Source: Cupriavidus sp. AU9028
Lineage (GTDB): Bacteria > Pseudomonadota > Gammaproteobacteria > Burkholderiales > Burkholderiaceae
DNA: 64,000 nt
Assembly: GCF_019795295.1 (NCBI RefSeq)
Contig: NZ_JAIMCG010000001.1
Location: forward strand, 124,001-188,000
Reading direction: 5' to 3'
Below are positions 46,720 through 62,334 of this stretch, one piece after another. The position numbers and the translations under genes were made by a program. Under the pieces are notes generated by a model, which was given only the letters and a program-made list of their open reading frames with translations, had not been told where the DNA came from and ran no database searches. Within the stretch, counting starts at the first letter, position 1, and each line of letters begins with the position of its first letter.

Positions 46720-47913
46720 ATGACAGCAAGGCATGGCCCGCAGGGCCGCGGGCAGGGCGTACTGGCGGGGCTGCGCGTCATCGACTTCGGCCAGTTCATT
46801 GCCGCGCCATCGGCGGGGCAGATCCTGGCCGATCTGGGCGCGGACGTCATCAAGGTAGAGCCACCCGGCGGCGATGCCAGCCGCCGCTCCGGCTGGCATG
46901 CCGACAGCGCGGGACCGATGTTCTCGGCCTACAACCGCGGCAAGCGTTCCATCGTGCTGGACCTGCGCCGTGACGAGGATCGCGCGGTGGCGCTGGCGCT
47001 GGTGCAGCGTGCCGATGTGCTGCTGCAGAACGCGCGTCCCGGCGTGATGGAGAAATATGGGTTGGGCGCGGCAGCGCTGCGCGCCCGCCTGCCGCGGCTG
47101 GTCTATGCGTCGGTCAGCGGTTTCGGCGACAGCGGCGCGGCGGCAGCGCGCCCCGGACTCGATATCGCCGCGCAGGCCGAGAGCGGCATGATGAGCATCA
47201 ATGGCGACGCCCATGCCGACCCGACCCGCGTCGGCTTCACGGTCGTCGATGTGCTGGCCGGGCGCACGCTGGCCACTGGCGTGCTGGCTGCGCTGGTGCG
47301 CCGCGGCACGACCGGCGAGGGTGCCCACGTGAAGGTGTCCCTGATCGACGTGGCTGCCGACGCGCTGAGCCAGCAATGGGCCGAGCAGCAGCAGCTCCAG
47401 ACGCCTCCCTCGCGCTGCGGCAACGGGCAGGCCACGCTGGCGCCCGCCGCCGACGTGATTGCCACCGGCGACGGCAAGGTCGTGGTGTCGGCCTATCTGC
47501 AGGAGCATTTCGCGCGGTTGTGCGAATGCCTGGGCCAGCCCGGGCTAGCCAGCGACCCCCGCTTTCACGACAACGCCGCGCGCGTGGCCAACCGCGCTGC
47601 CTTGCGGCAGGCGCTGGGTGAGGCGCTGTCGGCGTTCTCCGCCGAGCAGGCCTGCGACAGGCTCAACGCCGCCGGCGTGGTGTGCGGCGTGGTGCGGGAT
47701 CTGGGCAATGCCATCGAACGCATGCAGGCGCTGGCGCCGGACCGTCTGCGCGCCGTGCCGTCCCCGGGCAATCGCGTGCTGCGGATGCCGGCATTGCCGC
47801 TGACGATGGATGGCATGCCCGAAGCCGATGCCGCGTTGCCGGAGCTGGGCGAGCATGGCGCCGAGATCCTGGCCGAACTGCATAGGGACGCGGTGGACCT
47901 GCAGGAGGCTTGA
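46720..47913 (+). CDS. CaiB/BaiF-family (class III) CoA-transferase
   Basis: Family III CoA-transferases move CoA between acyl groups through an aspartyl-CoA intermediate. The 397-residue protein has L-R-V-I-D-F-G-Q-F-I-A-A-P, G-A-D-V-I-K-V-E-P-P-G-G-D, N-R-G-K-R-S-I-V-L-D-L and the catalytic Asp in R-P-G-L-D-I-A-A-Q-A-E-S-G. Substrates in this family vary widely (carnitine, oxalate, mesaconate, aromatic acids), so none is assigned. It converges with a Bug receptor gene, a frequent pairing in Cupriavidus-like genomes that hints at uptake and activation of an organic acid. Confidence 0.92.
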   Translation: MTARHGPQGRGQGVLAGLRVIDFGQFIAAPSAGQILADLGADVIKVEPPGGDASRRSGWHADSAGPMFSAYNRGKRSIVLDLRRDEDRAVALALVQRADVLLQNARPGVMEKYGLGAAALRARLPRLVYASVSGFGDSGAAAARPGLDIAAQAESGMMSINGDAHADPTRVGFTVVDVLAGRTLATGVLAALVRRGTTGEGAHVKVSLIDVAADALSQQWAEQQQLQTPPSRCGNGQATLAPAADVIATGDGKVVVSAYLQEHFARLCECLGQPGLASDPRFHDNAARVANRAALRQALGEALSAFSAEQACDRLNAAGVVCGVVRDLGNAIERMQALAPDRLRAVPSPGNRVLRMPALPLTMDGMPEADAALPELGEHGAEILAELHRDAVDLQEA

Positions 47914-47952
47914 GCGAGGGAAGCGAATCGAGGGTGCTCGAACGGCTGCTGG

Positions 47953-48007
47953 TTCGCGCCCCTCTCCCACGAGTGGGAGAGGGGCGGGGGAGAGGGGAGC
48001 GAACCGG
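47953..48007. repeat. Intergenic CCCTCTCCC-type palindromic repeat, copy 4
   Basis: CCCCTCTCCCAC-GA-GTGGGAGAGGGG followed by CGGGGGAGAGGGG, flanked by GGTTCGCG on the left and GCGAACCGG on the right. Its stem has AC/GT where other copies have GC/GC, a compensated change. Confidence 0.78.
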
Positions 48008-48015
48008 TAGTCCAT

Positions 48016-48047
48016 GGAAAAAGCCCGGCAATGCCGGGCCCTTTTCC
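48016..48047. terminator. Bidirectional terminator between the CoA-transferase and Bug genes
   Basis: GGAAAAA-GCCCGGC-AAT-GCCGGGC-CCTTTTCC: a 7-bp GC stem flanked by A-run on the left and T-run on the right, so it can end transcripts from both convergent genes. Confidence 0.8.
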
Positions 48048-48063
48048 TTGCCGCAAGACGCAC

Positions 48064-49056
48064 TCAATCGATGCGCAGCCCGCCAACCTTGGCCAGTTCC
48101 TGCCACGCAGCGACATCCTCGCGCACGATGGCGGTGAACTGTTCCACCGTCCTGGTGGGAGGGCGCGCCATGTTCTGCTGCGAGAATTTCTGCACCACTT
48201 CATCGGTGCCGAGGATGCGGTTGATCTCGGCATTGAGCCGCTGCACGACTTCCTTCGGCGTGGAGGCCGGCGCGAACACGCCATACCAGCCGTCCTTGTC
48301 GAACGGATAACCCTGCTCCTTCAGCGTGGGCACGCCGGGCAAGGCCGGACCGCGTGCCGTGCCGGTGCAGCCCAGCGCGACCAGACGTCCCGCGCGTACG
48401 TGCGGCACGGGCGAGGCGATATCGGTGAAACCGACCAGCATGTTCTGCGACAGCAGGTCGGTGACCAGCTGCGCGCTGCCCTTGTAAGGAACATGCTGCA
48501 TTGACACACGGTAGTGCGACTTGATGCCTTCCATCACCAGATGGCCGGTCGAGCCGTTGCCCCAGGTGCCATAGGACAGCTTGTCCGGGTTGGCCTTGGC
48601 ATGGCGCACCAGGTCGCCCAGATTGCGAAAGCCGGTCGACGGATGTGCGACCAGCAGGATGCCCGCGGCCCCTACCTGTGCCACCGGCGTCAGGTCCTTC
48701 AGCGCGTCGTAGGGCAGCTTGGGGTAGATCACGGGATTGATGGCGATGGCCGACGAGGGCGCCAGCAGCAGCGTGTAGCCATCGCCTTCGCTCTTGGCGG
48801 CCAGATCGATGCCGATCAGGCTGTTGGCGCCGGGACGGTTGTCCACCACGACCGGTTGGCCCAGCGCCTTGTTCAGATGCGCCGAGATCAGACGCGCGAA
48901 GATGTCCATGCCGGCGCCTGCCGGCCCGGGCACCACCAGCCGGATCGGCCGGGCTGGCCAGCCGTTCGCCGCAGCGCTGGCGCGGGCCAGCGTGGGCAGG
49001 GCGAGAAGGGCGGCGACGCCGAGGCAGGTGCGCCGCCGCATGGGCGAGTGATTCAT
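48064..49056 (-). CDS. Bug/TctC-family periplasmic tripartite-tricarboxylate substrate-binding protein
   Basis: Bug receptors are abundant in Burkholderiales and bind carboxylates or aromatic acids for uptake or sensing. The 330-residue protein has a signal sequence with a twin-Arg stretch (M-R-R-R-T-C-L-G, then a hydrophobic core to A-R-A-S-A at ~27), so Tat export is possible. W-P-A-R-P-I-R-L-V-V-P, the loop P-A-G-A-G-M-D-I-F-A-R, V-V-V-D-N-R-P-G-A-N and P-Y-K-G-S-A-Q follow. GGAG lies eight bases before the ATG. No TctA/TctB membrane subunits are nearby, as is usual for orphan Bug genes. Confidence 0.92.
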   Translation of the reverse strand: MNHSPMRRRTCLGVAALLALPTLARASAAANGWPARPIRLVVPGPAGAGMDIFARLISAHLNKALGQPVVVDNRPGANSLIGIDLAAKSEGDGYTLLLAPSSAIAINPVIYPKLPYDALKDLTPVAQVGAAGILLVAHPSTGFRNLGDLVRHAKANPDKLSYGTWGNGSTGHLVMEGIKSHYRVSMQHVPYKGSAQLVTDLLSQNMLVGFTDIASPVPHVRAGRLVALGCTGTARGPALPGVPTLKEQGYPFDKDGWYGVFAPASTPKEVVQRLNAEINRILGTDEVVQKFSQQNMARPPTRTVEQFTAIVREDVAAWQELAKVGGLRID

Positions 49057-49242
49057 GGCTTGTCTCCGATATCTTTTTCTGAGGTCGCGCCTGCACCTGG
49101 CAGCCCGGAAGGCTCGAGGGGGGCGGCGCGCCTGATCAGCTTGTGGAAATTCTAGCGACCGCGCGCACCGGGCATTACAGCGATCTTCGTCAGTCTGTCC
49201 TGCGCAAAGCGCCGGGATTGCCGCGGCGCGAGGGCCTGAAGT

Positions 49243-50046
49243 CTACTGCACGGGCTCCAGCGCCGGCGCAATACGGTGCGTGCCGGCATTGAAGTTGATG
49301 ATCGGGTTGGACTGGCGGCAGGTGGTCCTGCGAATCTTGCCGACGATCAGGTCGTGCGTGCCGAGCACTTCGGTGCAGACGATGTCGCATTCGATGCTGG
49401 CCAGCGCATCGGCAAGCACCGGCAGGCCCTGATCGCTCTCGCGCCACAGCCCGGCGGCGAAGCGCGCCGGTCCCTGCGGTGCGCCGAGGAAGTCCTGGAT
49501 GATGCGCTGATGGTCCTCTCCCAGCACGTTGGCGACGAACTTGCCGGTGCGCGCCAGGGCTGCCCGCGCCGAAGCGGTCTGCTGCACGAAGAAGCCGATC
49601 ATCGGCGGCGATGCCGATACCGAGGTCAGGCTGGAGATGATGATCCCGGCCACGTCCTCGCCGCTGCCCGTGGTGATGGCGCTGATGCCGGCCGGCAGCG
49701 CGCGCATGGCGGCCTTGAAATCGTCGACCGACACCACCTCGTCCTCGGTATTGATCGTGATGTGGGCGCGCAGCATGCCGGCTTCGTCCACCCACCCGCG
49801 GCTGGCGGCGAAGTCCAGCATGGCCTGGAAACCGGCCTCCCACTGCGCATCGCCGGCATGGCCCGACAGGAAGCGCAATACCGAGGGGCAGAGCCGCACA
49901 TGGCGCTCGTCCTCGCGCCGGCCGATCCGCGCGATGGCGCGGTCCAGCCGCTCCTGCGGCTGCGGATCCACCAGCACGTCCAGTCGCTTGAAATCGTCAG
50001 GGTCGCGCAGCGCGATGGCGCCGGCATCGGTCAGGTAGATTCGCAT
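49243..50046 (-). CDS. Flavin reductase-like protein with N-terminal extension
   Basis: This is a 267-residue protein. Residues ~110-260 form an FMN-binding flavin-reductase split barrel (M-R-A-L-P-A-G-I-S-A-I-T-T-G, S-S-L-T-S-V-S-A-S-P-P-M-I-G-F-F, G-K-F-V-A-N-V-L-G-E-D). The first ~100 residues are an unusual extension (M-R-I-Y-L-T-D-A-G and an Arg/Asp-rich helical stretch) of unknown role. AAGGAG precedes the ATG. It follows the luciferase-like monooxygenase by 10 bases on the same strand, so it most likely supplies reduced FMN to that enzyme. Confidence 0.9.
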   Translation of the reverse strand: MRIYLTDAGAIALRDPDDFKRLDVLVDPQPQERLDRAIARIGRREDERHVRLCPSVLRFLSGHAGDAQWEAGFQAMLDFAASRGWVDEAGMLRAHITINTEDEVVSVDDFKAAMRALPAGISAITTGSGEDVAGIIISSLTSVSASPPMIGFFVQQTASARAALARTGKFVANVLGEDHQRIIQDFLGAPQGPARFAAGLWRESDQGLPVLADALASIECDIVCTEVLGTHDLIVGKIRRTTCRQSNPIINFNAGTHRIAPALEPVQ

Positions 50047-50056
50047 GGCGGGCTCC

Positions 50057-51133
50057 TTACGCGGCGATGCTCATGGCGGTGCTGGGGCTGCCGAGTTCCT
50101 TGCGGATCGCGGGAATGATCCGCTCGCCCCACAGTTCGATCTGGCGCAGCATGGTCTTCTGGTCGAAATCCCCCAGCTGCGTCTGCAGCGCCAGATGCTT
50201 CGGGCGCAGGATGGTGAGCTCTTCCAGCAGCTTGTCGATGACCTGGTTGACCGATCCCACCGGCAGGTTCTTGCGCAGCTGCTCGAAGGTCGGGTCGGTT
50301 TCCGAAGGCACTTCCTTGACCATATAGCCGTCGTCGCTCTGCGCGCGGCGGAACTTCAGGCTCTCGGAGATGCGGCGCTGGAAGCGGGCGCAATCCAGGT
50401 AGGCGTCGATCTCGGCCTGGTTGTCCGAGGCGTAGCCGCAGCGCAGGAAGCCGAACTTGACGTCGCGGTCCAGGTCCTTGCCATTCTCGCTGGCGACGTT
50501 TTCCAGGCGCCCGCGCAGCGCGGCGATCGCGTCGTTGCCGTTCAGCAGCGCGGTGACGAAGAGGTTGTGGTTCTCGCGCACGCCGCGTCCCAGCGTCAGC
50601 GGATTGCCGGAGGTGATCCACAGCGGCGGCATCGGGTCCTGCACGCAGCGCACCGCGATGGAGCTGGGCGGAATCTTGAGGAACTTGCCGTCGTGTTCGA
50701 AGATTTTCTGCGTCAGGCCCTTCGGGATGACATCGAGGAATTCGTTGAAGATCGCGCCCGAATCGGCGATGTCCACGCCGAAGCGTTCGAACTCGAACTG
50801 CTGGTAGCCGGAACCGACGCCCAGTTCCAGGCGGCCGTTGGACACCGTGTCGACGAAGCCGACCTCGGCGAGGAAGCGGGCGGGGTGGTACAGCGGCAGG
50901 ATGCACACGGCGGTACCGAGGCGGATGCGCTGCGTCCTGGCGGCGGCATGCGCCACCGTCATCAGCGGCGAGGGCGACAGCGAGTAGTTGTTGAAGTGGT
51001 GCTCGGCGTACCAGGCGGTATCGAATCCGGCCTGTTCCGCCATCACGGTCTGCTCGATGGAGTTGCTGATGACGTCGCGCGAAGTCTGGTGGTAACCTCG
51101 CTGCTGCGCCAGAATGAATACGCCGAATTCCAT
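50057..51133 (-). CDS. Luciferase-like (LLM) flavin-dependent monooxygenase
   Basis: A 358-residue TIM-barrel protein: M-E-F-G-V-F-I-L-A-Q, A-G-F-D-T-A-W-Y-A-E-H-H-F, R-I-R-L-G-T-A-V-C-I-L-P-L-Y-H-P and R-L-E-L-G-V-G-S-G-Y-Q-Q-F-E-F-E-R-F-G are the luciferase-family blocks in order. These enzymes use reduced FMN from a partner reductase to oxygenate aldehydes, ketones, sulfonates or chelators. The neighbour reductase supports a two-component system. A type II Baeyer-Villiger role is attractive given the lactonase and CoA genes nearby, but is inference. CAGGAGACACC precedes the ATG. It diverges from the LysR gene. Confidence 0.92.
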   Translation of the reverse strand: MEFGVFILAQQRGYHQTSRDVISNSIEQTVMAEQAGFDTAWYAEHHFNNYSLSPSPLMTVAHAAARTQRIRLGTAVCILPLYHPARFLAEVGFVDTVSNGRLELGVGSGYQQFEFERFGVDIADSGAIFNEFLDVIPKGLTQKIFEHDGKFLKIPPSSIAVRCVQDPMPPLWITSGNPLTLGRGVRENHNLFVTALLNGNDAIAALRGRLENVASENGKDLDRDVKFGFLRCGYASDNQAEIDAYLDCARFQRRISESLKFRRAQSDDGYMVKEVPSETDPTFEQLRKNLPVGSVNQVIDKLLEELTILRPKHLALQTQLGDFDQKTMLRQIELWGERIIPAIRKELGSPSTAMSIAA

Positions 51134-51148
51134 GGTGTCTCCTGAAAA

Positions 51149-51179
51149 TGCCCGTTGAGAAGTGCGTGAGGAAATTCTA
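51149..51179 (-). promoter_or_regulatory. Possible -10 promoter motif of the monooxygenase operon
   Basis: Leftward TAGAAT at 51174-51179, within a motif CTAGAATTTCC that also appears before the Bug gene (TAGAAT at 49149-49154) and, as TAGCAT, before the SMP-30 gene (53201-53206). No good -35 box is present, consistent with activator dependence. Confidence 0.4.
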
Positions 51180-51247
51180 GGAGCCGGTCATGGGGGGCCG
51201 GAATAGGGCAAAGGCGGCGTTCTGTACTGCAAAAACTGGAGGAATGG

Positions 51248-52264
51248 ATGGACAGGCTTCGCGCCATGGAGCTCTTTCTGTCGATCTCGAAGACGGAAAG
51301 CTTCTCGGAGACGGCGCGCCAGTTCGGGGTGTCGGCGACATCGGTCTCGCGCATGATCACCGACTTCGAGAGCGAGCTGAACGTGAAGCTGCTGATGCGC
51401 TCTACCCGGCAGGTGGTGCTGACCGAGGCGGGGCAGGAGTATGCGCGCGAGCTGGAAGGCATCCTGTGGAACATCGGCCAGGCGCACCGCAATATCACCG
51501 AGATCCGCTCCGCGCCCAAGGGCACGCTACGGGTGCACTCGCGCATGATGTTCGGGCTCGGCGTGCTGCCCGCGCTGGTGGCAGACTTCCGCCGGGAATA
51601 CCCGGACATCCATATCGAACTGGTGCTGTCCGAATCGAAGACGGACCTGCGCCGCAACAACTTCGATATCGACTTTCGCATCTCGCCGCCGGTCGAGGCC
51701 GGGCTGAAGCGCCGCATCCTGTTTCGCAGCGAGCGCTACCTGGTCGCATCGCCGTCATACCTGAAGCGGCGGGCGCCGCTGCGGGAGCCCACCGATATCC
51801 TGCAGCACGAATGCATGGCGTACCTGCTTCCCGGCGGCCAGCCGAGCTGGCGCTTCCGGCGCGACGGCGCGATCGAGGAGGTCAGCTTCAAGCCGCGCCA
51901 TGTCACCAACAGCGGCGTGGCGCTGCAGGAGCTGGCGCGGCTGGGCGAGGGCATCGCGCTGCTGGATGACTATACGGTCCATCGCGATATCTCCAGCGGC
52001 ACGCTGGTGCGGCTGCTGCCCGACTATCAGATCACCAACACCACGTTCGAGGAAGGGATGTACGCGACCATCCTCGATACCGCGACGATCCCCGCCAAGA
52101 TCCGCCTGTTCCTCGACTTCGTCGCCTCGCAGGTATCGGGTGAGGCGCTGCGCTTCTCCGCCTACGGAAAGTCCGGCGCGCGGCACGTCGCGAGCGAAAG
52201 CGCGCAGGCGCCCGCCGTCGATGCTGCCGGTGCTGCCGGCGAGGCTCGGCAGGCCGAGGCCTAG
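51248..52264 (+). CDS. LysR-family transcriptional regulator
   Basis: A 338-residue regulator. The N-terminal helix-turn-helix (about 17-50: F-S-E-T-A-R-Q-F-G-V-S-A-T-S-V-S-R-M-I) is followed by L-N-V-K-L-L-M-R-S-T-R-Q-V-V-L-T-E-A-G, then a full effector domain from about 92. The last ~35 residues are an Ala/Glu-rich tail. GGAGG precedes the ATG. It diverges from the monooxygenase/reductase operon and its stop overlaps the SMP-30 stop, so it is the best candidate to control the surrounding catabolic genes. Confidence 0.93.
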   Translation: MDRLRAMELFLSISKTESFSETARQFGVSATSVSRMITDFESELNVKLLMRSTRQVVLTEAGQEYARELEGILWNIGQAHRNITEIRSAPKGTLRVHSRMMFGLGVLPALVADFRREYPDIHIELVLSESKTDLRRNNFDIDFRISPPVEAGLKRRILFRSERYLVASPSYLKRRAPLREPTDILQHECMAYLLPGGQPSWRFRRDGAIEEVSFKPRHVTNSGVALQELARLGEGIALLDDYTVHRDISSGTLVRLLPDYQITNTTFEEGMYATILDTATIPAKIRLFLDFVASQVSGEALRFSAYGKSGARHVASESAQAPAVDAAGAAGEARQAEA

Positions 52265-53157
52265 GGTCCCGCCATTGCCGGCACCGCGATCCGGCATTCG
52301 GGCCGCGGCGCGCCGCGCCAACCGGTACCGCGCAGCCGCAGCAGGGCGCCGTCCAGTTCACCGTTGGCGCGCAGCCGTCCGCTGTCGCGGATCGTCGTGA
52401 CGTAGAGGTCCGCGAGGTCCTCGCCGCCGAAGCACAGCGAAGCCGGGTGCGCCACCGGCAAGGGGATGCGGTGCGTCAGCGTGCCGCTCGCGTCAAAGCG
52501 CGCCAGCGCCCCCACGCGCACCAGCGCAGTCCATAGCCCGCCTTCACTGTCGAAACAGCAGCCATCCGGTCCGGAATCCCACGGCTGGGTATCGACGAAG
52601 CGCTCGCGCGCGCGCCACCGGCCCGCGCTGTCGATGCGGTAGCGGTAGATCGCCCGGGCCGCGCTGTCGCAGACATAGACCTCCTTGCCCGACGGGTGGG
52701 CCACCGGTCCATTGACGATGGCGAGGTCGCGGTCCAGCTGCGCAAGCCGCCCGGCCGGGTCGAGCCGGTACAGGCCGCCCAGCGGCGGCTCGCTGTCCCC
52801 GCGCACCGGATGCATGGTGCCCACCACGAAGCTGCCGTCCGGCATGGCGGCGCCATCGTTCAGCCGCAGATGGGGATGGCGCTCGTCCAGCGCCGCCACC
52901 GTGCGCAGCGCGCCGGTGGCAGGGAAGAGCAGCGCGATCTCATGCTGCAGCGCGACCACCACACTGTCCGGGCCGTTCAGCGCCATCGAACCGAGTGGCG
53001 CAGGCAGTTCGATCACGCGATGCTCACCGCTGCCCGGATCGACCAGGATCACGTGACCCCGGCGGCAATCGAGCATCCACAGCCGCTGCTGCCGCGCATC
53101 CCACACCGGGCACTCGCCCAGGTCGGTGCATAGCGTGCCAACGCGCTCGATCTGCAT
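52261..53157 (-). CDS. SMP-30/gluconolactonase-family lactonase
   Basis: A 298-residue six-bladed propeller enzyme. The metal and substrate residues are present: Glu15 (L-G-E-C-P-V-W-D), Asn100-Asp101 (R-L-N-D-G), Asn149 (I-V-N-G-P) and Asp198 (S-G-P-D-G). Family members open sugar lactones or other lactones with a bound divalent metal. The start at 53155-53157 follows CAAGGAAGACACC; longer in-frame starts are not family-like. In this setting it could hydrolyse the lactone made by the flavin monooxygenase (inference). A plain sugar-lactone role is the alternative. Confidence 0.91.
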   Translation of the reverse strand: MQIERVGTLCTDLGECPVWDARQQRLWMLDCRRGHVILVDPGSGEHRVIELPAPLGSMALNGPDSVVVALQHEIALLFPATGALRTVAALDERHPHLRLNDGAAMPDGSFVVGTMHPVRGDSEPPLGGLYRLDPAGRLAQLDRDLAIVNGPVAHPSGKEVYVCDSAARAIYRYRIDSAGRWRARERFVDTQPWDSGPDGCCFDSEGGLWTALVRVGALARFDASGTLTHRIPLPVAHPASLCFGGEDLADLYVTTIRDSGRLRANGELDGALLRLRGTGWRGAPRPECRIAVPAMAGP

Positions 53158-53282
53158 GGTGTCTTCCTTGTGTGTATTGGCCCGGCGCCATGAAGCGGAA
53201 ATGCTAGCGGGTCCGCCATGCGCGGAATATGGCGGATTCCTGCAGGACAGAACCGACGAGATTGGCGGAAATTGACGGGGGA

Positions 53283-53302
53283 GTCCGTTCATATAATCGG
53301 AC
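53283..53302 (+). promoter_or_regulatory. Inverted repeat embracing a -10 box before the beta-oxidation operon
   Basis: GTCCG-N10-CGGAC encloses a perfect TATAAT at 53292-53297. TTGACG at 53272-53277 is the only -35-like box, but the spacer is 14 bases, shorter than normal, as in activator-dependent or repressed promoters. It lies about 55 bases before the leader ORF. Confidence 0.55.
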
Positions 53303-53354: not shown

Positions 53355-53441
53355 ATGAAGCACGCACACAGCGGGCTGCGGCGCGCGCTCGCCCCGGCCT
53401 CTCGCAGGAGCCCTGTCAACGCGATGGGAGTGCGGCGATGA
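53355..53441 (+). CDS. 28-codon leader ORF coupled to the crotonase gene
   Basis: A short frame with a strong ribosome site (GAAGGAGACACC then ATG) encodes a basic, Arg-rich 28-residue peptide (six or more Arg, no acidic residue). Its TGA overlaps the ATG of the crotonase gene (ATGA). The downstream gene has no equally strong site of its own, so translation may be coupled. It could be a regulatory leader peptide, or the shortened remnant of an older first gene. No homologue is recognised. Confidence 0.5.
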   Translation: MKHAHSGLRRALAPASRRSPVNAMGVRR

Positions 53442-54208: not shown

Positions 54209-54210
54209 TC

Positions 54211-56355
54211 ATGCTGCAATCCATGCAACGTCCTGGCGCGGGCCTGGACGGGTTCTTTCACGCCCGCAGCATTGCCATCGTCGGCGCGTCCGACGACATC
54301 ACCAAGATCGGCGGCCGTCCCATCTACATGCTGAAGAAGCACGGGTACGCCGGCCAGATCTATCCGGTCAACCCGAAGGGCGGCACCGTGCAGGCGCTGA
54401 CCGCCTATCGCTCGGTGCTCGATCTGCCTGAAGCGCCCGAGCTTGCCATCGTCGCGGTGCCGGCTGCCGCCACTGCCGCCGCATTGCGCGATTGCGGTGC
54501 GCGCGGCGTGCGTTGCGCCATCGTGCTGTCCTCGGGATTCGCCGAACTGGGCGACGAGGGCGCGGCGATGCAGGCCGAACTCGTGCAGATCGCCCGCGAG
54601 CACGGCATGCGTGTGCTCGGCCCGAATTGCCTTGGCACCGTCAACGTACCCGACAAGCTGATCGGCTCGTTCTCGATCAGCCTGGAGGAAAACATGCCGC
54701 CGGCGGGCATCGTCGGCATCGTGTCGCAGTCGGGCAATGTCGGCAGCCACACGATGGCGACGGTCGCTCGGCGCGGGCTCGGTGTGAGCCGCTTCATGGC
54801 TACCGGCAACGAGGCCGACGTCGATATCGCCGACGGCATCGCCGCGCTGGCCGAGGACGAGGACACCCGCATCATCCTGTGCTGCATGGAAACCTGCCGT
54901 CATGCCCGCCGGCTGACCGGCGCGCTGGAGCTGGCGCGCAGCCGCGGCAAGCCGGTGCTGGTGCTCAAGGTCGGCGCCACCGAATCGGGGCAGGCAGCGG
55001 CCGCCTCGCACACCGGCGCGATGATGGCGTCGGATGCGGTGATCGACGCGGTGTTCCGCCGGCACGGCGCGCTGCGGGTGCGCTCGGTCGAGGAGCTGAT
55101 CGAGGTCGGCCACGCCGCGGCGCTGCTGATGCCGCAGCGGCTGCCCCGCAACGACGCCGTCACGCTGCTGGCCGCCTCCGGCGGCTTCGGCGTGATGATG
55201 GCCGATGCGATGAGCGACGCGGGCCTGCGGCTGCCGGCGCTGTCCGAGGCGACCCGTGCGCGCATTCGCGAAGCGGTGCCGGCCGCCGGTACCGGCAATC
55301 CGGTCGATGCCACCGCGCAGATGTCCAGCCGGCCGGAAATCCTGCTCAAGATGCTCGGCGCGTTGCTGGAGGACGAGTCGGGCAGCACGCTGGTGATGTT
55401 CATGTCGCTGTCGCTGTACAGCACGCGGCTGCGTGGTATCTACCTCGACGCGCTGGCGCAGGTGCGCGCCAGCCATCCGGACCGCACCTTCGTCATCGTC
55501 GGGCAGGGCCCGGCAGACGCGATCGCGCAGATCCAGGGTCTCGGCATCCCGGTGTTCAGCACGATTCTCGACGCTGCCCGTGGCCTGGCAGGACTGGTAC
55601 GGCTCGCCAAACTGGAGCGCACGCCGGTGCAGCCCATCGCGGTCACGCAAGCGGCGCCGCTCGATGCCGCGGTCTTCGCCAACGAGTACTGCGCCAAGCG
55701 CGTGCTGCGCGATGCCGGTATCGAGGTGCCGGCCGAGACCATCGTGGGCAGCGCCGACGACGCCGTACAGGCCGCCGAGGCGATCGGCTATCCGGTCGTT
55801 CTCAAGATCGTCTCCCCCGATATTCCGCACAAGACCGAAGCCGGCGGCGTGCTGCTGGACCTGCGCTCGGCCGACGCGGTACGGCAGGCCTATGACACGG
55901 TCACCGCCAATGCCGCTCGGCATGCACCGCGGGCCCGCATCGATGGCGTGCTGGTCGCGCCGATGCTCAAGGGCGGCGTGGAGATGATCGCCGGCGTCTC
56001 GCAGGACCCGGTGTTCGGCCCGGTCGTGATGGTTGGCATGGGCGGCATCCATGCCGAGATCCTGAAGGACGTTGCCGTGCAGGTGGCGCCGGTCAGCGAG
56101 GACGAGGCAATGGCGATGATCCGCTCGCTGAAGATGTTCCCGCTGCTGGACGGCGCACGCGGACGGCCGAAGGCTGACGTCTCCGCCGCCGCCCGCAGCG
56201 TGGCGCGGCTGTCCGAGTTCGCCTGCCGCCATGCGCTGCAGGTCGCCGAGATCGACATGAACCCGGTGCTGGTACGGCCGCAAGGCGAGGGCGCGATCGT
56301 GCTCGATGCGCTGATGATCGCTGCCACGCCCGCCGCCGCGCCCCACACCGACTGA
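54211..56355 (+). CDS. Acyl-CoA synthetase, NDP-forming (acetate-CoA ligase family)
   Basis: A 714-residue single-chain enzyme of the ADP-forming acyl-CoA synthetase family. The CoA-binding domain comes first (I-A-I-V-G-A-S-D-D; V-N-P-K-G-G; G-P-N-C-L-G), then a succinyl-CoA-ligase-like domain with the phospho-His in A-A-S-H-T-G-A-M. An ATP-grasp domain follows (Y-P-V-V-L-K-I-V-S-P-D-I-P-H-K-T-E-A-G-G split over residues ~530-550, and E-I-D-M-N-P-V). It would activate an organic acid to its CoA ester, or run in reverse. It starts 2 bases after the crotonase stop. Confidence 0.93.
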   Translation: MLQSMQRPGAGLDGFFHARSIAIVGASDDITKIGGRPIYMLKKHGYAGQIYPVNPKGGTVQALTAYRSVLDLPEAPELAIVAVPAAATAAALRDCGARGVRCAIVLSSGFAELGDEGAAMQAELVQIAREHGMRVLGPNCLGTVNVPDKLIGSFSISLEENMPPAGIVGIVSQSGNVGSHTMATVARRGLGVSRFMATGNEADVDIADGIAALAEDEDTRIILCCMETCRHARRLTGALELARSRGKPVLVLKVGATESGQAAAASHTGAMMASDAVIDAVFRRHGALRVRSVEELIEVGHAAALLMPQRLPRNDAVTLLAASGGFGVMMADAMSDAGLRLPALSEATRARIREAVPAAGTGNPVDATAQMSSRPEILLKMLGALLEDESGSTLVMFMSLSLYSTRLRGIYLDALAQVRASHPDRTFVIVGQGPADAIAQIQGLGIPVFSTILDAARGLAGLVRLAKLERTPVQPIAVTQAAPLDAAVFANEYCAKRVLRDAGIEVPAETIVGSADDAVQAAEAIGYPVVLKIVSPDIPHKTEAGGVLLDLRSADAVRQAYDTVTANAARHAPRARIDGVLVAPMLKGGVEMIAGVSQDPVFGPVVMVGMGGIHAEILKDVAVQVAPVSEDEAMAMIRSLKMFPLLDGARGRPKADVSAAARSVARLSEFACRHALQVAEIDMNPVLVRPQGEGAIVLDALMIAATPAAAPHTD

Positions 56356-56363
56356 GAACTGCC

Positions 56364-57569
56364 ATGCATATCGACAAACACATAGCGGTGCCGGACCCCG
56401 CGGCCGGGCCCGAGGTCTACCGCCAGCATGCCCGCAACTGGCTGCGCGGCAATCTGCCCGAGTTCATGCGCGCCGACAGCCCGGACTATCGCACCCCCAC
56501 GCTGGAGGAATGCCGCGAGTGGGAAGCGAGCATGTATCAGGCCGGGCTGGCGGGCATGACGTGGCCCAGGGCCTACGGCGGCCACGGCCTGACCCTGCGC
56601 GAGCACCTTGCCGTCAACAAGGAGATCGGCGCGCTGCTGATGCCCGAGAGCGTCAGCTCGATCGGCAAGGAACTGGCCGGCCCGATCATCATGAAGGTGG
56701 GCACCGAGGCGCAGAAGCAGGCGTTCCTGCCCGCCATCCTCAATATGCGCGAGTACTGGTGCCAGGGCTTCTCCGAACCGGACGCCGGCTCCGACCTCGC
56801 CCGGCTGCGCACGCGCGCGGTGCGGGAGGGCGACCATTGGCGCATCAATGGCCAGAAGATCTGGACCAGCGGCGCGGCCAAGGCGCACTACTGCCTGCTG
56901 CTCACGCGTACCGGCACGGTGGCGGACAAGCACCGCGGCCTGCTGATGTTCGCGGTGCCGATGGACACGCCGGGCATCCGCGTGGTGCCGATCAAGTCGA
57001 TCGACGGCAAGGAGTCGTTCGCCGAAGTCTTCTTCGACGACGTGGTGGTGCCCGACAGCGCCCGGCTCGGCGCGCCCGACGACGGCTGGAACGCCGCCAT
57101 CCGCGTGCTCTCGATCGAGCGCGCCACCAACCGGATGTACCGGGCCTGGCGCTTCGAGGCCGAACTGCGCCATCTGGTCGCGGCATGCAAGTCCGACGCG
57201 CAGCTCGCGCCGGCGCTCGAAGACGGCTATACGCAGCGCGCCATCGGTGAAGTGGTGGCGCAGATCGACGCGCTCAAGGGGCTGGTCGAGCAGACCGTGT
57301 CCAGCATGATGGCCGGCGAATCGATCGGCGCGCGTGGCTCGCTGACCAAGCTGTACTGGTCCGAATGCCACCAGGCGTTTGCCGGGCTGGCGCTGTCGCT
57401 GCTGTCGCAGGTCGGCCCGCACTCCAGCGCGCAGGCGCGCCGTGCGCGCAAGTCCTTCACCCAGGCCTACCTGTTCGCGCGCGCCGAAACCATCTATGCC
57501 GGTACTTCCGAGGTGCAGCTGGACGTGATCGCACAGCGCATCCTGAACCTGCCGAAGGATCTGACATGA
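56364..57569 (+). CDS. Acyl-CoA dehydrogenase, large subunit type
   Basis: A 401-residue FAD enzyme. The opening W-P-R-A-Y-G-G-H-G, the flavin-site F-S-E-P-D-A-G-S-D-L-A, W-x-I-N-G-Q-K-I-W-T-S and F-F-D-D-V-V-V-P are family hallmarks. The C-terminal domain contains E-T-I-Y-A-G-T-S-E-V-Q. It introduces the alpha-beta double bond in an acyl-CoA. Its stop overlaps the start of a second, shorter acyl-CoA dehydrogenase gene, as in heteromeric FadE pairs known from steroid side-chain degradation. Confidence 0.93.
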   Translation: MHIDKHIAVPDPAAGPEVYRQHARNWLRGNLPEFMRADSPDYRTPTLEECREWEASMYQAGLAGMTWPRAYGGHGLTLREHLAVNKEIGALLMPESVSSIGKELAGPIIMKVGTEAQKQAFLPAILNMREYWCQGFSEPDAGSDLARLRTRAVREGDHWRINGQKIWTSGAAKAHYCLLLTRTGTVADKHRGLLMFAVPMDTPGIRVVPIKSIDGKESFAEVFFDDVVVPDSARLGAPDDGWNAAIRVLSIERATNRMYRAWRFEAELRHLVAACKSDAQLAPALEDGYTQRAIGEVVAQIDALKGLVEQTVSSMMAGESIGARGSLTKLYWSECHQAFAGLALSLLSQVGPHSSAQARRARKSFTQAYLFARAETIYAGTSEVQLDVIAQRILNLPKDLT

Positions 57570-58525
57570 CCACGCACCACGACGAACTGCGGCCCGAGGA
57601 ATTCGCCCAGGCCGCCACCGAAGCCATCGCCGATGCGCTCGCACGCGACGCGGGCGAGGCACCGCGCGTATTGGCCGAGGCAGGGCTGTTCGGTGTCTGC
57701 GCCGCCGAGGACGATGGCGGCCTGGGATTGCCGCTCGAATTCGCGCTGCCCGTGGTCAATGCCGCAGGCCGCCTGCAGCTGCGTCTGCCGCTGCCGGAGC
57801 AGATCCTGCTGGCGTCGGCGCTGCGCGGCACGCCCCAGGCCGAAGCGCTGGCAGCCGGCGAGAAGCTTGCCACCATCGCGTGGCAGGGCAGTGTGCAGCA
57901 GGGCACTGCGGCCCACGCCCGCCACGTCGCGCAGTGCGACTGGGTGCTGGTGGACGATGGCGGCGGCGCGGTGCTGCTGGAGGTATCGAGCCTGTCCGTG
58001 CAGAAGGATGGCGCCCTCGATCCGGATGCGCCGCAAAGCTGGCTCGATCTGCGCGGCGCCACCGTGGTGGCCCGCATCGATGCGCCGGCGCGCGCGGCGC
58101 TCGTGCACGCGTCGGCCCTGCTGATGGCGGAACTGGCCAACGGCGCCGCCGAAGCCGCGCTCGAACTGACGGCGGGCTATATGGCCACGCGTGTGCAGTT
58201 CGGCCGTCCGCTGTCGGCCAAGCAGGCGGTGCGTCATCTGCTGGCGCGCATGAAGCTGCTGCAGGAGGCGTCGTCCGCCGCCGTGCGGCGCGCGCTGCGC
58301 AGCAATGAATTCGGCGAGGCGCGCGGCGCCCGCCCGGCGCTGGCCGGCGCCATCGCCAACTCGGCATTCATCCTGGAGAAGGCCATCCATCTGCACGGCG
58401 GGATGGGCTTCACCTGGGAAGTGCCGTTGCACTACTCGCTGCGCGAGATACGCAAGCTCGATGCCGCCTTCGGCGCCGGCGCGCTGCCGCGCGGCATCGG
58501 TCAGGACTTTATCCGCAGCGTCTGA
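57566..58525 (+). CDS. Acyl-CoA dehydrogenase-like protein, short partner subunit
   Basis: A 319-residue protein with a recognisable acyl-CoA dehydrogenase C-terminal domain (Y-M-A-T-R-V-Q-F-G-R-P-L-S-A-K-Q-A-V, H-L-H-G-G-M-G-F-T-W-E-V-P). The N-terminal and middle domains are shortened and lack the usual W-x-E-P-x-x-G-S-D flavin motif. It is therefore probably the non-catalytic or half-site partner of the preceding subunit. ATGA overlap implies equal expression. Confidence 0.88.
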   Translation: MTTHHDELRPEEFAQAATEAIADALARDAGEAPRVLAEAGLFGVCAAEDDGGLGLPLEFALPVVNAAGRLQLRLPLPEQILLASALRGTPQAEALAAGEKLATIAWQGSVQQGTAAHARHVAQCDWVLVDDGGGAVLLEVSSLSVQKDGALDPDAPQSWLDLRGATVVARIDAPARAALVHASALLMAELANGAAEAALELTAGYMATRVQFGRPLSAKQAVRHLLARMKLLQEASSAAVRRALRSNEFGEARGARPALAGAIANSAFILEKAIHLHGGMGFTWEVPLHYSLREIRKLDAAFGAGALPRGIGQDFIRSV

Positions 58526-58534
58526 GGAGACACC

Positions 58535-59293
58535 ATGCAACAGGATCTTTCCGGGCGCGTGGCGCTCGTCACCGGCGCGGGCGCCGGCATCGGCCGCGCC
58601 ACCGCGCGCCAGCTTGCCGCACGCGGCGCCATCGTCGCGATCAACGACCTCAAGGAGGAGCTGGTCAACGACGCGGTCGAAGATATCCGCCGCAACGGCG
58701 GCGAAGCCATCGCGGTGGTGCAGAACGTCTCCACCCGCGAGGGCATCCAGGAGGCGGTGCGCATGGCCGCCGCGCACCGCCATCGTTTCGACATCCTGGT
58801 CAACAACGCCGCCTGGGTGCGCTACCAGTCCGTGCCGGAGATCATGCCCGAGACCATGGACCGCATGCTCGATATCGGCTTCAAGGCGGTGGTGTGGGGC
58901 ATCCAGGCCGCCACCGAGGCGATGGATGGCGAGTGCGGCGGCGCCATCGTCAATGTCGCATCCACCGCCGCACTGGTGTCCGCGCCCAATTCTGTCGTCT
59001 ATTCGGGCATCAAGGCCGGCATTCTGGGCGTGACGCGCGCCGCCGCGGCCGAACTGGGCGCGCGCAACATCCGCGTCAACGCGGTCTGTCCCTCGGCGAT
59101 TCCGACCGAAGGGACGCAGCGCAATCGCAATGCCGAGCGCGATGCGCTGCGGGTCTCGCGCACGCCGATGGGGCGCCTGGGCACCGTCGACGATGTCGCC
59201 ATGGCGATCTGCTATCTCGCCAGTGACGAAGCGCGCTTCATCACCGCGCAGGCGCTGGCGGTGGACGGCGGCGTGACCTTCACCAACCTCTGA
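58535..59293 (+). CDS. Short-chain dehydrogenase/reductase
   Basis: A 252-residue classical SDR: T-G-A-G-A-G-I-G at 13-20, N-N-A at 90-92 and the Ser143-Tyr156-Lys160 set. N-D-L at 37-39 after the second strand suggests NAD preference. The ending D-G-G-V-T-F is typical. GAGGAGACACC precedes the ATG. In this operon it would oxidise a hydroxyacyl-CoA or a cyclic alcohol; the substrate is not evident. Confidence 0.92.
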   Translation: MQQDLSGRVALVTGAGAGIGRATARQLAARGAIVAINDLKEELVNDAVEDIRRNGGEAIAVVQNVSTREGIQEAVRMAAAHRHRFDILVNNAAWVRYQSVPEIMPETMDRMLDIGFKAVVWGIQAATEAMDGECGGAIVNVASTAALVSAPNSVVYSGIKAGILGVTRAAAAELGARNIRVNAVCPSAIPTEGTQRNRNAERDALRVSRTPMGRLGTVDDVAMAICYLASDEARFITAQALAVDGGVTFTNL

Positions 59294-59295
59294 TC

Positions 59296-60549
59296 TTGGC
59301 TACGGTCCTGATCACCGGCGCGGCCGCCGGCATCGGCCGCGCCGCGGCGCACCGGCTTGCCCGCGACGGCTGGCGCTGCCTGCTGGTCGATCGCGATGCC
59401 GCCCGGCTGGACGCCGCGCTGCGAAGCCTGCCCGCCGGCATGCACGGCGATCATCTGGCGCTGCAGGCCGACCTTGCCGACGCCGCCGCCATCGAAGCGG
59501 TGGCGCGGCGCGTGCGCGCCAGCGGCCCGCTCGATGCGCTCGTCAGCAATGCCGGCATCTCGGACAACAGCAACCGCGGCATCGAGCAGCAGGATGCCGC
59601 GCGCTGGCGCACGGTGCTCGATGTCAATCTGCATGCACCGGCGCGGCTGGTCGAGGCGCTGTCGCCCGTCCTCAACCCGGGCGCGCGGGTCGTCAACGTG
59701 GCTTCGGGCGCCGGGCTGCGCGCGATTCCATGGCGCGGCGCGTATAGCGCCAGCAAGGCCGGCCTGATCGCGATGTCGCGGGCGCTGGCGCGGCAGCGCC
59801 GGGACCTGTGCGTGACAGCGCTGTGTCCCGGCTTCGTGCGCACCGAGCTGGTCGATGGGTTGATCGCCAGCGGGCAACTGGACCCGGCGCGCGCGGTCGC
59901 CAAGATTCCGCTGGGCCGCATGGCCGAGCCAGCCGACATCGCCGAGACCATCCGCTTCCTTTGCGAGGCCGATGCCGCGCCGTTGTCGGGGCTGGTGCTC
60001 AGCGTCGACGGCGGGTCGTCGGTGTTCGGCGGCAGCCAGGCCTTTGCGCCTGCGGTGGGCGAGCCGGTCGCGCTGGACGCCGCGGCGCATCTGCGTGTCG
60101 AGGGCGCTGCTGGCGCGCACGCGCCTGGCCTGGCCGATGTGGCGCCGAGCGGGGAAGGGCACGGCGGGGAAGCGCAGGGCGGCGGGCAGGGCTATTGCGG
60201 CGTGATCGACCTCACGCCCGCCCACGCGTCGCCCGGTGCACGGCTGGAAGCGGTACGGGCGTCCGCTTGCCGCTTCGCCGGCCAGCATCCGCACGATGCC
60301 AGCCTGACCCTGCTGCTGCCGCGCGAGGATCGCGACGATTGGCGCGCGGCCGCCGACGCCGCGGCGGCCCGCATGCTGGTCGCCACGCTGGCCTGCGAAT
60401 GGGGCCAGCGCGCGCTGCGCATCAACGCGGTGCAGTGCGAAGTGACGGCGTCCCCGGCGTCATCGCTGCGCTATCTGCCCCTGTTGCGCTATCTCGCCGC
60501 CCCCGCCGCGCGCTGCATCACCGGACAGGTGCTCACGATGCCGTCCTGA
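59296..60549 (+). CDS. SDR fused to a second, N-terminally truncated SDR-like half
   Basis: A 417-residue protein starting at TTG, two bases after the preceding stop. Residues 1-245 are a complete SDR (T-G-A-A-A-G-I-G at 7-14, Ser137, Tyr150, Lys154, closing V-D-G-G). After a Gly/Ala-rich linker (about 250-295), residues ~300-417 resemble the last third of another SDR (L-A-C-E-W-G-Q-R-A-L-R-I-N-A-V and R-Y-L-A-A-P-A-A-R-C-I-T-G-Q-V-L) but lack a Rossmann start and catalytic residues. This half may serve in dimer contacts or be a decaying duplicate. Confidence 0.85.
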   Translation: MATVLITGAAAGIGRAAAHRLARDGWRCLLVDRDAARLDAALRSLPAGMHGDHLALQADLADAAAIEAVARRVRASGPLDALVSNAGISDNSNRGIEQQDAARWRTVLDVNLHAPARLVEALSPVLNPGARVVNVASGAGLRAIPWRGAYSASKAGLIAMSRALARQRRDLCVTALCPGFVRTELVDGLIASGQLDPARAVAKIPLGRMAEPADIAETIRFLCEADAAPLSGLVLSVDGGSSVFGGSQAFAPAVGEPVALDAAAHLRVEGAAGAHAPGLADVAPSGEGHGGEAQGGGQGYCGVIDLTPAHASPGARLEAVRASACRFAGQHPHDASLTLLLPREDRDDWRAAADAAAARMLVATLACEWGQRALRINAVQCEVTASPASSLRYLPLLRYLAAPAARCITGQVLTMPS

Positions 60550-60696
60550 GCGGCGCAGCCGGCCACCACTGTATTCCCACGGTATTGCGTCATGCCGCTC
60601 GCCGAGCCGGCAGGGACGCGCTTTTCCTGCGTCGTTGCCCGCTGCGCCATGCATCGGGCAGCGCGCGGTTCACAACAAAACGAGGAGACGAAACCA

Positions 60697-61788
60697 ATGA
60701 AGGGAAGACTTGCCGTACCCGCCGCGCTGTCGCTGGCGTGCGCATTGCCGCTGCAGGCACAGGCCAGCGTCACGCTGTACGGTGTCATCGACAATGGCAT
60801 CGAGTACGCCAATCACCAGCCCGAGGGCGGCGGTTCGATCGTGCGGATGTCCTCGGCCAACATCGCCGGCTCACGCTGGGGCCTGCGCGGCGAGGAAGAC
60901 CTGGGCGGGGGACGCAAGGCGGTGTTCGTGCTGGAGAGCGGATTCGACGGCGACACGGGCCGCTCCTCGCAGGGCGGGCGCCTGTTCGGCCGGATGGCCT
61001 ATGTCGGCATGCAGGGGCGTTGGGGCAGCCTGCTGGTCGGCCGTCAGCAGAATGCGCTGTTCGACTTCATCGGCCCGTACGATCCGATGCTGCTGGCGCC
61101 GCGCTATTCCATCATGAACCAGGACGTCGCCTTCGTCTCGCGCGCCGACAATACGGTCAAGTACCTCGGCCGGTTCGGCGGGGTCACCGCCTCGGCGATG
61201 TACAGCTTCGGCGCCGAGAGCAGCCGTCCCGACGGCAGCGAGGTACCCGGGGAACCGAAGCTGGGCAGGGAGTACGGCCTGCGCCTGAGCTACGCCGCCG
61301 GGCCGTTCGGCATCGGCGCCGTCTATGACGAGATCAACTCCGGCACCACCACCGTCAACCCCGATGCCAAGACCCGCCGCGCGGTGCTGGCCGGCTTCTA
61401 CGACTTCGCGTCGATCAAGACCTTCCTCGGCTATCGCTGGGCGCGGGCCTATGACGGCGCGCTGCTGCCCGGCGCGGCCGTGGGAGCCGGCAACCAGGGC
61501 TCCAGCCTCTGGTGGACGGGCCTGCGCTGGGAAGCCACGCGCGCGGTCGCGCTGACCCTGGCTGCCTACTACCAGGACTTCCGCAACACCGGCAGCGATC
61601 CGTGGCTGTTCGTCGGCCATGCCCGCTACGCCTTTTCCAAACGGACGGAGGCGTACCTGAGCGTGGGTTATGCGCTGAACCGGGGCGAGGCCAATCTCGG
61701 CGTCGCCTCCGGCGTCGGCGGCTTTGGCTACGCGCCGCCCGGTACCAACCAGCTCGGCACCGTGGTCGGCATCCGGCATATCTTCTGA
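60697..61788 (+). CDS. Gram-negative porin
   Basis: A 363-residue outer-membrane porin with a signal peptide cleaved after A-Q-A (about 23). S-V-T-L-Y-G-V-I-D-N-G, S-R-W-G-L-R-G-E-E-D-L-G-G-G and the terminal Phe (R-H-I-F) needed for BAM assembly are typical of the betaproteobacterial OmpC-like family. CGAGGAGACGAAACCA precedes the ATG. Lying at the end of the catabolic operon it could admit its substrate, though these porins are often general. Confidence 0.93.
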   Translation: MKGRLAVPAALSLACALPLQAQASVTLYGVIDNGIEYANHQPEGGGSIVRMSSANIAGSRWGLRGEEDLGGGRKAVFVLESGFDGDTGRSSQGGRLFGRMAYVGMQGRWGSLLVGRQQNALFDFIGPYDPMLLAPRYSIMNQDVAFVSRADNTVKYLGRFGGVTASAMYSFGAESSRPDGSEVPGEPKLGREYGLRLSYAAGPFGIGAVYDEINSGTTTVNPDAKTRRAVLAGFYDFASIKTFLGYRWARAYDGALLPGAAVGAGNQGSSLWWTGLRWEATRAVALTLAAYYQDFRNTGSDPWLFVGHARYAFSKRTEAYLSVGYALNRGEANLGVASGVGGFGYAPPGTNQLGTVVGIRHIF

Positions 61789-62334
61789 TCAACCCTCGCC
61801 GCGCAGCAGGGCGTAGACCGGATCGTCCGGGAAGCGCCCGCCCACCGGCTGCCGCGGACCGAACTGCTCGGCCTGCGGCTTGCCGGTGGCGGCGAGCGGC
61901 CGGATCCAGTCATAGACCACCACGCGCCGGGCGATGCGCCACTCGCCCCGGCGCTTCTCGAAACGGTCCACATAGCGGCCCGCCAGGAACAGCTCCTGCG
62001 CCTCGCCAGTCTCGTCGGGCCGGCGCTGCAGCGCCTGGAAGTACGACTCCACCGCGGCCCACTCCCCGTGCAGCGCGATCGACAGGTTGGAGATCATGTG
62101 GATGGATCGTTCGCTGGTCCTGAGCCGCTCCAGCACCCAGTCGATGAAGCCGCTGGCGCTGCCCGAGTACGGTCCGTGCCGGTCAGTGCCGTCCTCCCAG
62201 TAGGCGCTGCGCAGCGCCGCCTCGTCGCAGCGGTCCACGCCGCGGCAATACCGGTACAGGCATTCGCGGATCGCTTCCCGGTCCAGCAACTGCGTCAGAA
62301 CGCTCTGCGGCTCCGCTTCGTATGTCATCGTCAT
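61789..62334 (-). CDS. SnoaL-like (NTF2-fold) protein
   Basis: This is a 181-residue single-domain protein. L-D-R-E-A-I-R-E-C-L-Y-R-Y-C-R-G-V-D-R-C-D, then D-G-x-D-x-H-G-P-Y-S-G and R-Y-V-D-R-F-E-K-R-x-G-E-W-R-I-A match the SnoaL_4 group (PF13577-like). Members include hydratases, isomerases and ring-hydroxylating dioxygenase small subunits; the Asp/His pair after W-E-D-G could be catalytic. AGGGGAAATC precedes the ATG at 62334. It is convergent with the porin and lies at the right end of the catabolic island. Confidence 0.85.
   Translation of the reverse strand: MTMTYEAEPQSVLTQLLDREAIRECLYRYCRGVDRCDEAALRSAYWEDGTDRHGPYSGSASGFIDWVLERLRTSERSIHMISNLSIALHGEWAAVESYFQALQRRPDETGEAQELFLAGRYVDRFEKRRGEWRIARRVVVYDWIRPLAATGKPQAEQFGPRQPVGGRFPDDPVYALLRGEG

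Follow-up and report, generated by a model that had tools for sequence, protein, structure and literature searches.

Does a run of genes at positions 46,720 to 62,334 of a 64,000-nucleotide stretch of Cupriavidus sp. AU9028 (contig NZ_JAIMCG010000001.1, positions 124,001 to 188,000; hereafter the window) serve a single catabolic pathway, and if so, what kind of substrate does that pathway consume? The block joins an FMNH2-dependent luciferase-like monooxygenase (LLM) and its flavin reductase to a lactonase of the SMP-30 type, a LysR-family regulator and genes for CoA-dependent breakdown, and an earlier note on this DNA read the whole as one undescribed route for the oxidation of a cyclic ketone. 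We find that the core genes of the block form one functional unit, and are not a set of chance neighbors. With some reservation, we favor a LysR-controlled catabolic regulon in which Baeyer-Villiger oxidation of an alicyclic ketone would be followed by lactone opening and CoA-dependent breakdown; the pathway probably consumes a bulky cyclic compound, terpenoid or steroid-like. The regulon is widespread and apparently uncharacterized, and with an operator predicted for it, the question of its substrate can be tested directly by induction.

A conserved core and its accessory genes

A scan of a genome collection with the LLM returned 272 encoding stretches, the best 80 of which, representing 79 loci (L021-L099), were kept with flanks of 10 kb; counts over these loci describe best-scoring relatives and not a random sample. 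Window proteins were compared with the loci by tblastn and tallied at per-gene identity floors, and the counts leave out clusters of open reading frames, which contained many shadow frames. Genes for LysR, the crotonase, the NDP-forming acyl-CoA synthetase (ligase) and the first of two acyl-CoA dehydrogenase subunits (ACAD1) accompany the LLM in 66 of the 79 loci, joined by SMP-30 in 64, and LysR is divergent from the LLM, with starts less than 400 bp apart, in 69. Retention of both the core set and this divergence argues that the grouping is not due to chance. Taken singly, LysR was found in 77 loci, SMP-30 and ACAD1 in 70 each, the crotonase in 68, the ligase in 67, the flavin reductase (at least 28% identity) and the second dehydrogenase subunit (ACAD2) in 57 each, and the two short-chain dehydrogenases/reductases, SDR1 and SDR2, in 52 (at least 60%) and 47 (at least 40%), respectively. 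The genes of the block are:

46720-47913, plus strand: CaiB-type family III CoA-transferase, accessory (PF02515)
48064-49056, minus strand: Bug/TctC solute-binding protein, accessory (PF03401)
49243-50046, minus strand: flavin reductase with a conserved N-terminal extension (PF01613)
50057-51133, minus strand: FMNH2-dependent LLM, candidate type II Baeyer-Villiger enzyme (PF00296)
51248-52264, plus strand: LysR-family regulator, divergent from the LLM (PF00126 and PF03466)
52261-53157, minus strand: SMP-30/gluconolactonase-like lactonase (PF08450)
53438-54208, plus strand: one-Glu crotonase (PF00378; PRK06495 subfamily, above cut-off)
54208-56355, plus strand: NDP-forming acyl-CoA synthetase (PF13549, PF13607, PF13380)
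56364-57569, plus strand: ACAD1, alpha-type subunit (nearest solved structures Tcur3483, 6wy8/6wy9, and 4x28)
57566-58525, plus strand: ACAD2, beta-type partner subunit (PF00441 C-terminal domain only)
58535-59293, plus strand: SDR1 (PF13561)
59296-60549, plus strand: SDR2 (SDR domain to residue 241)
60592-61788, plus strand: porin, possible member (PF13609)
61789-62334, minus strand: SnoaL_4/NTF2-like protein (PF13577)

All of the genes named in the earlier note were found where it had placed them and in the families it had given. Its proposal of a single pathway is partly supported: the core genes form one unit, and CaiB (14 loci, at least 35% identity) and Bug (23 loci, at least 50%) are accessory and not general members. 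The CaiB-type protein is best matched in NCBIfam by succinate--glutarate CoA-transferase, under that model's cut-off. The porin was found in five loci (at least 35%), a count limited by the 10-kb flanks, as porin and SnoaL lie at or past the edge of most loci; in the window, 11 kb separate SnoaL from the LLM, so that it frequently falls outside the flanks. The SDR2 reading frame encodes 417 amino acids, of which Pfam SDR matches cover none beyond residue 241, and the C-terminal remainder was read by eye as a putative degenerate second SDR domain. Just outside the block, a second LLM-type gene (45642-46616, plus strand; TIGR03885, above cut-off) follows two alpha-amylase/trehalose-synthase-type genes, and was left out of the block.

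Loci with the core set include those of Burkholderiales, Bradyrhizobium, Mesorhizobium, Nitratireductor and Halomonas, and corresponding gene sets were also found on two roseobacter plasmids. Cupriavidus necator UYPR2.512 is among the carriers of the cluster, as is a Variovorax isolate. One of these, from Sulfitobacter, holds SMP-30, LysR, LLM, reductase, CaiB, FadB-like, dehydrogenase, PcaF-type thiolase, crotonase, ligase and both ACAD genes in one cluster, with CaiB directly 3' of the flavin reductase. The core set is incomplete in 13 loci (L047, L059, L062, L064-L067, L070, L071, L075, L076, L079 and L082), some of which are short or cut, while others, such as L071, L075, L076 and L079, differ in neighborhood. 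Some loci show a partly different gene order; in the Advenella-type ones (L060, L061, L063 and L068), the crotonase operon is found downstream of the reductase. Distribution is patchy within the order: the LLM was detected in three of 300 genomes at E<=1e-100 and the crotonase in four of 300 at E<=1e-90, both of them in two genomes (G000 and G430), and the third LLM (G484) is 48% identical. Within the family, 16 of 200 genomes encode an LLM at E<=1e-40, two of them close (the source genome itself, and G152 at 91%) and the rest 28-41% identical. By identity and tree, the window LLM stands near relatives from Cupriavidus, Bordetella and Achromobacter. The LLM of one cluster (L057, in a record titled Pantoea sp. 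18069) groups with an Acidovorax LLM, which may reflect recent transfer or a mislabeled record. Thirteen Variovorax-type or related loci (L037, L038, L042, L044-L046, L048-L050, L052, L053, L055 and L058) carry two LLM paralogues of this subfamily 2-3 kb apart, and so recall the paired camphor enzymes.

A predicted operator shared between operons

Three intergenic regions of the block, namely those upstream of Bug, between LLM and LysR, and between SMP-30 and the crotonase, contain all six occurrences in the 64-kb window of two short sequences, GCAGNACAGA and GAAATNCTAG, each present exactly three times:

49194-49203, minus strand: predicted LysR operator GCAGGACAGA, upstream of Bug
51221-51230, minus strand: predicted LysR operator GCAGTACAGA, between LLM and LysR
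53242-53251, plus strand: predicted LysR operator GCAGGACAGA, facing the crotonase operon
49146-49155, plus strand: GAAATNCTAG element, whose minus strand contains the TAGAAT -10-like box of the Bug promoter
51171-51180, plus strand: GAAATNCTAG element, with TAGAAT on the LLM strand
53198-53207, plus strand: GAAATNCTAG element, 41 bp from the SMP-30 start

Shuffling gave an expectation of 0.05 for GAAATNCTAG, and none of 100 shuffles held three copies. Counted by eye, 39-41 bp separate GCAGNACAGA from a subsequent TAGAAT (Bug and LLM) or TATAAT (crotonase, 40 bp). In the 320 bp preceding LLM, LysR, SMP-30, crotonase and Bug genes, a looser form of the motif occurs 73 times in 66,157 bp, against 29 times in 1,226,305 bp of other sequence, a 47-fold higher density in a set that includes the regions of first sighting.

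A matrix was built from 44 distinct sites upstream of the LLM, one having been found in 59 of 62 loci, and other promoters were scored with 200 random stretches drawn from their own locus as background. The regions upstream of the crotonase scored in the top 5% in 40 of 52 loci and in the top 1% in 27, and those upstream of SMP-30 in 31 of 47, mostly through the intergenic region that SMP-30 shares with the crotonase. Internal genes served as controls and yielded one of 48 (ligase), none of 45 (ACAD1) and none of 48 (SDR1); because these controls are mostly coding, shuffle and permuted-matrix controls were added. With shuffled versions of those upstream regions as background, the crotonase count was again 40 of 52 (31 at the 1% level), and 15 column-permuted matrices reached between 0 and 11 of the 52 regions. 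As the LLM-trained matrix finds most crotonase promoters and the controls find few or none, one LysR regulon spanning the LLM and crotonase operons is predicted. Lactonase and monooxygenase might have belonged to unrelated conserved operons, as the earlier note had allowed; the synteny and the motif instead place both in one conserved, predicted co-regulated unit.

Several results temper this prediction. The motif was first spotted by eye; three copies of GCAGNACAGA were attained in one of 100 shuffles (expectation 0.42), such that its count in the window is weak alone; and 12 of the 52 crotonase upstream regions fell outside the top 5%. Bug promoters reached the top 5% in only three of 24 loci, most of those elsewhere lacking the motif, and a 15-base extended pattern had four matches in the whole 4.68-Mb source genome, two of them outside the block, where a reversed control pattern had two.

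Candidate chemistry and competing readings

The LLM matches PF00296 at 212 bits, as an oxygenase of the bacterial-luciferase family, and its EHHF stretch, which resembles that of luciferase alpha, is invariant in 34 aligned sequences including that of the window. A separate flavin reductase adjoins it, in which PF01613 is confined to residues 114-254; the N-terminal extension of about 105-113 residues (window 49732-50046) has no Pfam match and is conserved in an eight-sequence alignment that includes the window. At L071 a flavin reductase fused to an FCD domain lies near the LLM (13492-14436), and the usual reductase is missing there. Among solved structures the SMP-30 protein is closest to 7plb, and keeps the Glu, Asn and Asp that align with 7plb and regucalcin, positions which we take to be metal ligands. 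The crotonase bears out the one-Glu label of the earlier note: it keeps the first Glu (in MPEI) of the two in 2pbp that are presumably catalytic, has Arg aligned with the second, and departs from the two-Glu pattern of classical hydratases. The Glu in SIERA of the ACAD1 alpha subunit aligns with a Glu of Tcur3483 that we assume to be catalytic. Both of the best solved relatives of ACAD1, Tcur3483 (6wy8/6wy9) and 4x28, are steroid enzymes, the latter presumably of ChsE4-ChsE5 type, and the best NCBIfam match of ACAD2 is IpdE2, far under cut-off. According to PMC11153573, alpha2beta2 enzymes of ChsE4-ChsE5 type act on the cholesterol side chain, and hold the isoalloxazine, the catalytic Glu and the substrate site in the alpha subunit.

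Family assignments suggest how these proteins may work in concert. The LLM and its reductase would insert oxygen into an alicyclic ketone to give a lactone, which SMP-30 would open; the resulting hydroxy-acid may be activated to its CoA ester by the NDP-forming ligase, or by CaiB if it is a dicarboxylate. The heteromeric acyl-CoA dehydrogenase of steroid-enzyme type, the one-Glu crotonase and the SDRs could then effect beta-oxidation or hydrolytic ring cleavage, with the SnoaL/NTF2 protein perhaps isomerizing, hydrating or dehydrating a ring intermediate. In Sulfitobacter, the genes that follow CaiB (FadB-like, dehydrogenase and PcaF-type thiolase) fit a dicarboxylate-like late intermediate.

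The Baeyer-Villiger step draws support from sister clusters that carry genes resembling type I Baeyer-Villiger monooxygenases (BVMOs) near the LLM or its partners, and from a precedent. Such a gene lies beside the LLM at L079 (pentalenolactone D synthase model, under cut-off); a protein of the Pseudosulfitobacter cluster is 65% identical to it, and others, 74-78% identical to the L079 protein, adjoin SnoaL at L149 and L153 and share a stretch with it at L160. The precedent, from PMC12239570, is the pdc cluster of Caenibius tardaugens, in which a BVMO (EGO55_13845) and an LLM (EGO55_13860) both perform Baeyer-Villiger oxidation of a ketone, progesterone.

Other observations pull in the opposite direction. 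The LLM scores 120 bits to 8cbb, 90 to luciferase alpha, and 41 to 3,6-diketocamphane monooxygenase, the one solved type II BVMO recognized in the structure comparison; all of its NCBIfam matches among those listed (the best 25 of 28) lie under cut-off, and neither these nor the structure comparison revealed a diketocamphane monooxygenase orthologue in the block. Nor does the block contain a thiolase gene. The source genome returned no match to the L079-type BVMO at E<=1e-20, in a search without a positive control, and holds one other FMO-like gene (contig C39); it also lacks a match to the extradiol dioxygenase model TIGR03213, which was built for the biphenyl enzyme and covers the steroid ones indirectly. 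Together, the lack of matches to TIGR03213 and to a partner-type BVMO, and the single other FMO-like gene, mean that a complete steroid seco-pathway in this genome is not supported by its sequence.

LLM enzymes carry out many chemistries, and the same genes could constitute one catabolic regulon without Baeyer-Villiger chemistry, the LLM instead opening an N-heterocycle, dealkylating or hydroxylating, and SMP-30 acting on another ester or lactone. We regard this as possible, if rather unlikely: the subfamily falls under every curated cut-off among the matches listed, and its nearest relatives are bacterial luciferase alpha and 8cbb, yet type I BVMO-like genes in sister clusters, a lactonase-family gene in 70 of the 79 loci and a dehydrogenase pair of steroid type are less readily accommodated. 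Unlikely, too, is a pathway for steroids proper, acting on a side chain or ring remnant and related to known steroid degradation. The ACAD matches described above and the progesterone-oxidizing LLM (PMC12239570) would suit it, whereas the block has no steroid-specific genes, the similarity to IpdE2 and ChsE-type enzymes is low, and the TIGR03213 result, itself a partial test, points the other way. A P450 from rhizobial relatives of the block, discussed below, may be relevant here; this nif-linked P450 is probably CYP127. In PMC8197338, CYP127A3 is listed as testosterone hydroxylating. That the block comprises unrelated modules which are merely adjacent seems very improbable: CaiB and Bug are not generally kept, and SnoaL is located elsewhere in most LLM-bearing genomes examined, but for the core genes this account is contradicted by synteny, the shared motif and the matrix controls.

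The nif-linked relatives and known systems

Plasmids carry relatives of the LLM chiefly in rhizobia: 117 of 72,556 records matched at E<=1e-40 (48 from Rhizobium, 47 from Sinorhizobium and eight from Mesorhizobium), and 104 of these are 60-80% identical to the window LLM. In Sinorhizobium fredii NGR234 (LLM NGR_RS30305), R. tropici and M. amorphae, an NTF2-SDR-LLM run that ends with the LLM lies near nif genes or rpoN, and a P450 precedes the run in NGR234 and M. amorphae; stretches with such a run are L106 (6283-11056, from pNGR234a), L109 and L110. LLM and SnoaL/NTF2 proteins of the window are 62-64% and 57-60% identical to those of these three plasmids. Only NTF2 and LLM are annotated on an S. 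meliloti plasmid, and the R. etli CFN 42 p42d copy (L116, 5341-7552), with P450, ferredoxin and NTF2 and no SDR or LLM annotated after them, looks like a decayed run. A plasmid search with SnoaL returned 132 records, mostly from the same genera; among the matches listed, 28 records are common to both searches, with gene starts 0.8-8.4 kb apart in all 28. Records from Variovorax SRS16 and Novosphingobium hold SnoaL relatives and no LLM annotated on the stretch; that of Variovorax sp. SRS16 plasmid 4 (L112) bears SnoaL with ligases, a crotonase, SDRs, SMP-30, three Bug proteins and an N-acyl homoserine lactonase-family gene. In a quick tree with long-branch warnings, four rhizobial plasmid LLMs form one clade (support 100) inside the alphaproteobacterial part, and within a 103-row group that includes the window and excludes rows of 28-48% identity.

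At the level of whole genomes, SnoaL orthologues were detected in 14 of 39 LLM-bearing genomes (L086, the fortieth, being left out) and in none of 198 family genomes (the source genome and G152 set aside) at E<=1e-50, a threshold set after the results were seen and applied to two unmatched samples, so that the comparison is descriptive; E<=1e-25 gives 17 of 39. Three of the 14, with contigs distinguished by their length, have SnoaL in or near the LLM cluster, immediately after the porin, which is the arrangement of the window (G491, L159), behind SDR1 and a Bug gene (G525, L155), or about 13 kb from the LLM (G507, L160). Both SnoaL copies of G521 adjoin other LLM copies (L151 and L152), and the remaining ten genomes have SnoaL at another site, usually accompanied by a second ligase, crotonase, SDR, SMP-30, second reductase or type I BVMO-like gene.

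The nif-linked NTF2-SDR-LLM genes gain a functional context, since close relatives of their LLM and NTF2 proteins belong to a catabolic cluster that also encodes a lactonase, a CoA ligase and a dehydrogenase of steroid type. By gene content, the NGR234 run is probably y4vGHIJ; a search of the open-access literature for the y4v gene names returned no relevant paper, and the passages available on CYP127 give no function for the nif-linked operon. In M. loti R7A, a nifQ fragment and the P450 gene msi332 lie behind a NifA-type promoter, and bacteroid expression of msi332 depends on NifA2, with 446.6 Miller units in the wild type against 14.6 when nifA2 is missing (PMC3538637, Table 4). By gene order, msi332 may be linked to the P450s of the NTF2-SDR-LLM runs. 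The free-living regulon and the nif-linked run could act on one class of compounds, a plant or rhizobial cyclic molecule resembling terpenoids or steroids, which in bacteroids would undergo hydroxylation by the P450, oxidation by the SDR and Baeyer-Villiger lactonization, and which Burkholderiales, Bradyrhizobium and roseobacters would use as a carbon source by way of the present pathway; we consider this extension doubtful.

No described pathway with this gene set was found among the papers listed by searches of the open-access literature, in agreement with the earlier note. Isoflavone catabolism (the ifc cluster of Variovorax) was tried as a candidate and rejected, the available part of PMC11069340 containing neither 'luciferase' nor 'acyl-CoA', and a literature search on trigonelline-type ring opening turned up only a paper on a poly(acrylic acid) LLM. 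We know of no association of the camphor pathway with SMP-30, an NDP-forming ligase, a heteromeric acyl-CoA dehydrogenase or SnoaL. That pathway, on the CAM plasmid of Pseudomonas putida, resembles the block in its two-component FMNH2-dependent oxygenases; the diketocamphane monooxygenases make a lactone from a cyclic ketone, as the block's LLM may do, and the plasmid also has genes for a CHMO-like BVMO and another luciferase-like protein (PMC6352141). It differs in that the window LLM is distant, at the 41 bits given above, and in that the camphor flavin reductase Fred is chromosomal (same source) whereas the block's reductase adjoins its LLM. The pdc cluster unites an LLM with a type I BVMO, but has four genes and two other regulators (TetR and LuxR), without a lactonase or CoA genes, and is likened here by description. 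The ChsE4-ChsE5 and IpdE1-IpdE2 heterotetramers recall ACAD1 and ACAD2 in their paired genes, one subunit being full-domain and one not, although similarity to the ACAD pair is low. The nifQ-dctA1-y4vGHIJ operon of NGR234 (P450, NTF2, double SDR and LLM) shares LLM, NTF2 and a putative two-domain SDR with the block. The rhizobial runs differ in their nif or rpoN surroundings, in the absence of SMP-30, ligase, acyl-CoA dehydrogenase or crotonase alongside, and in the P450 of NGR234 and M. amorphae (with a ferredoxin in the latter), where the Pfam search found none among the block's proteins. Set beside these systems, the block would belong to a known kind, that of Baeyer-Villiger, lactone and CoA catabolism, and its unusual part is the link to nif-linked genes.

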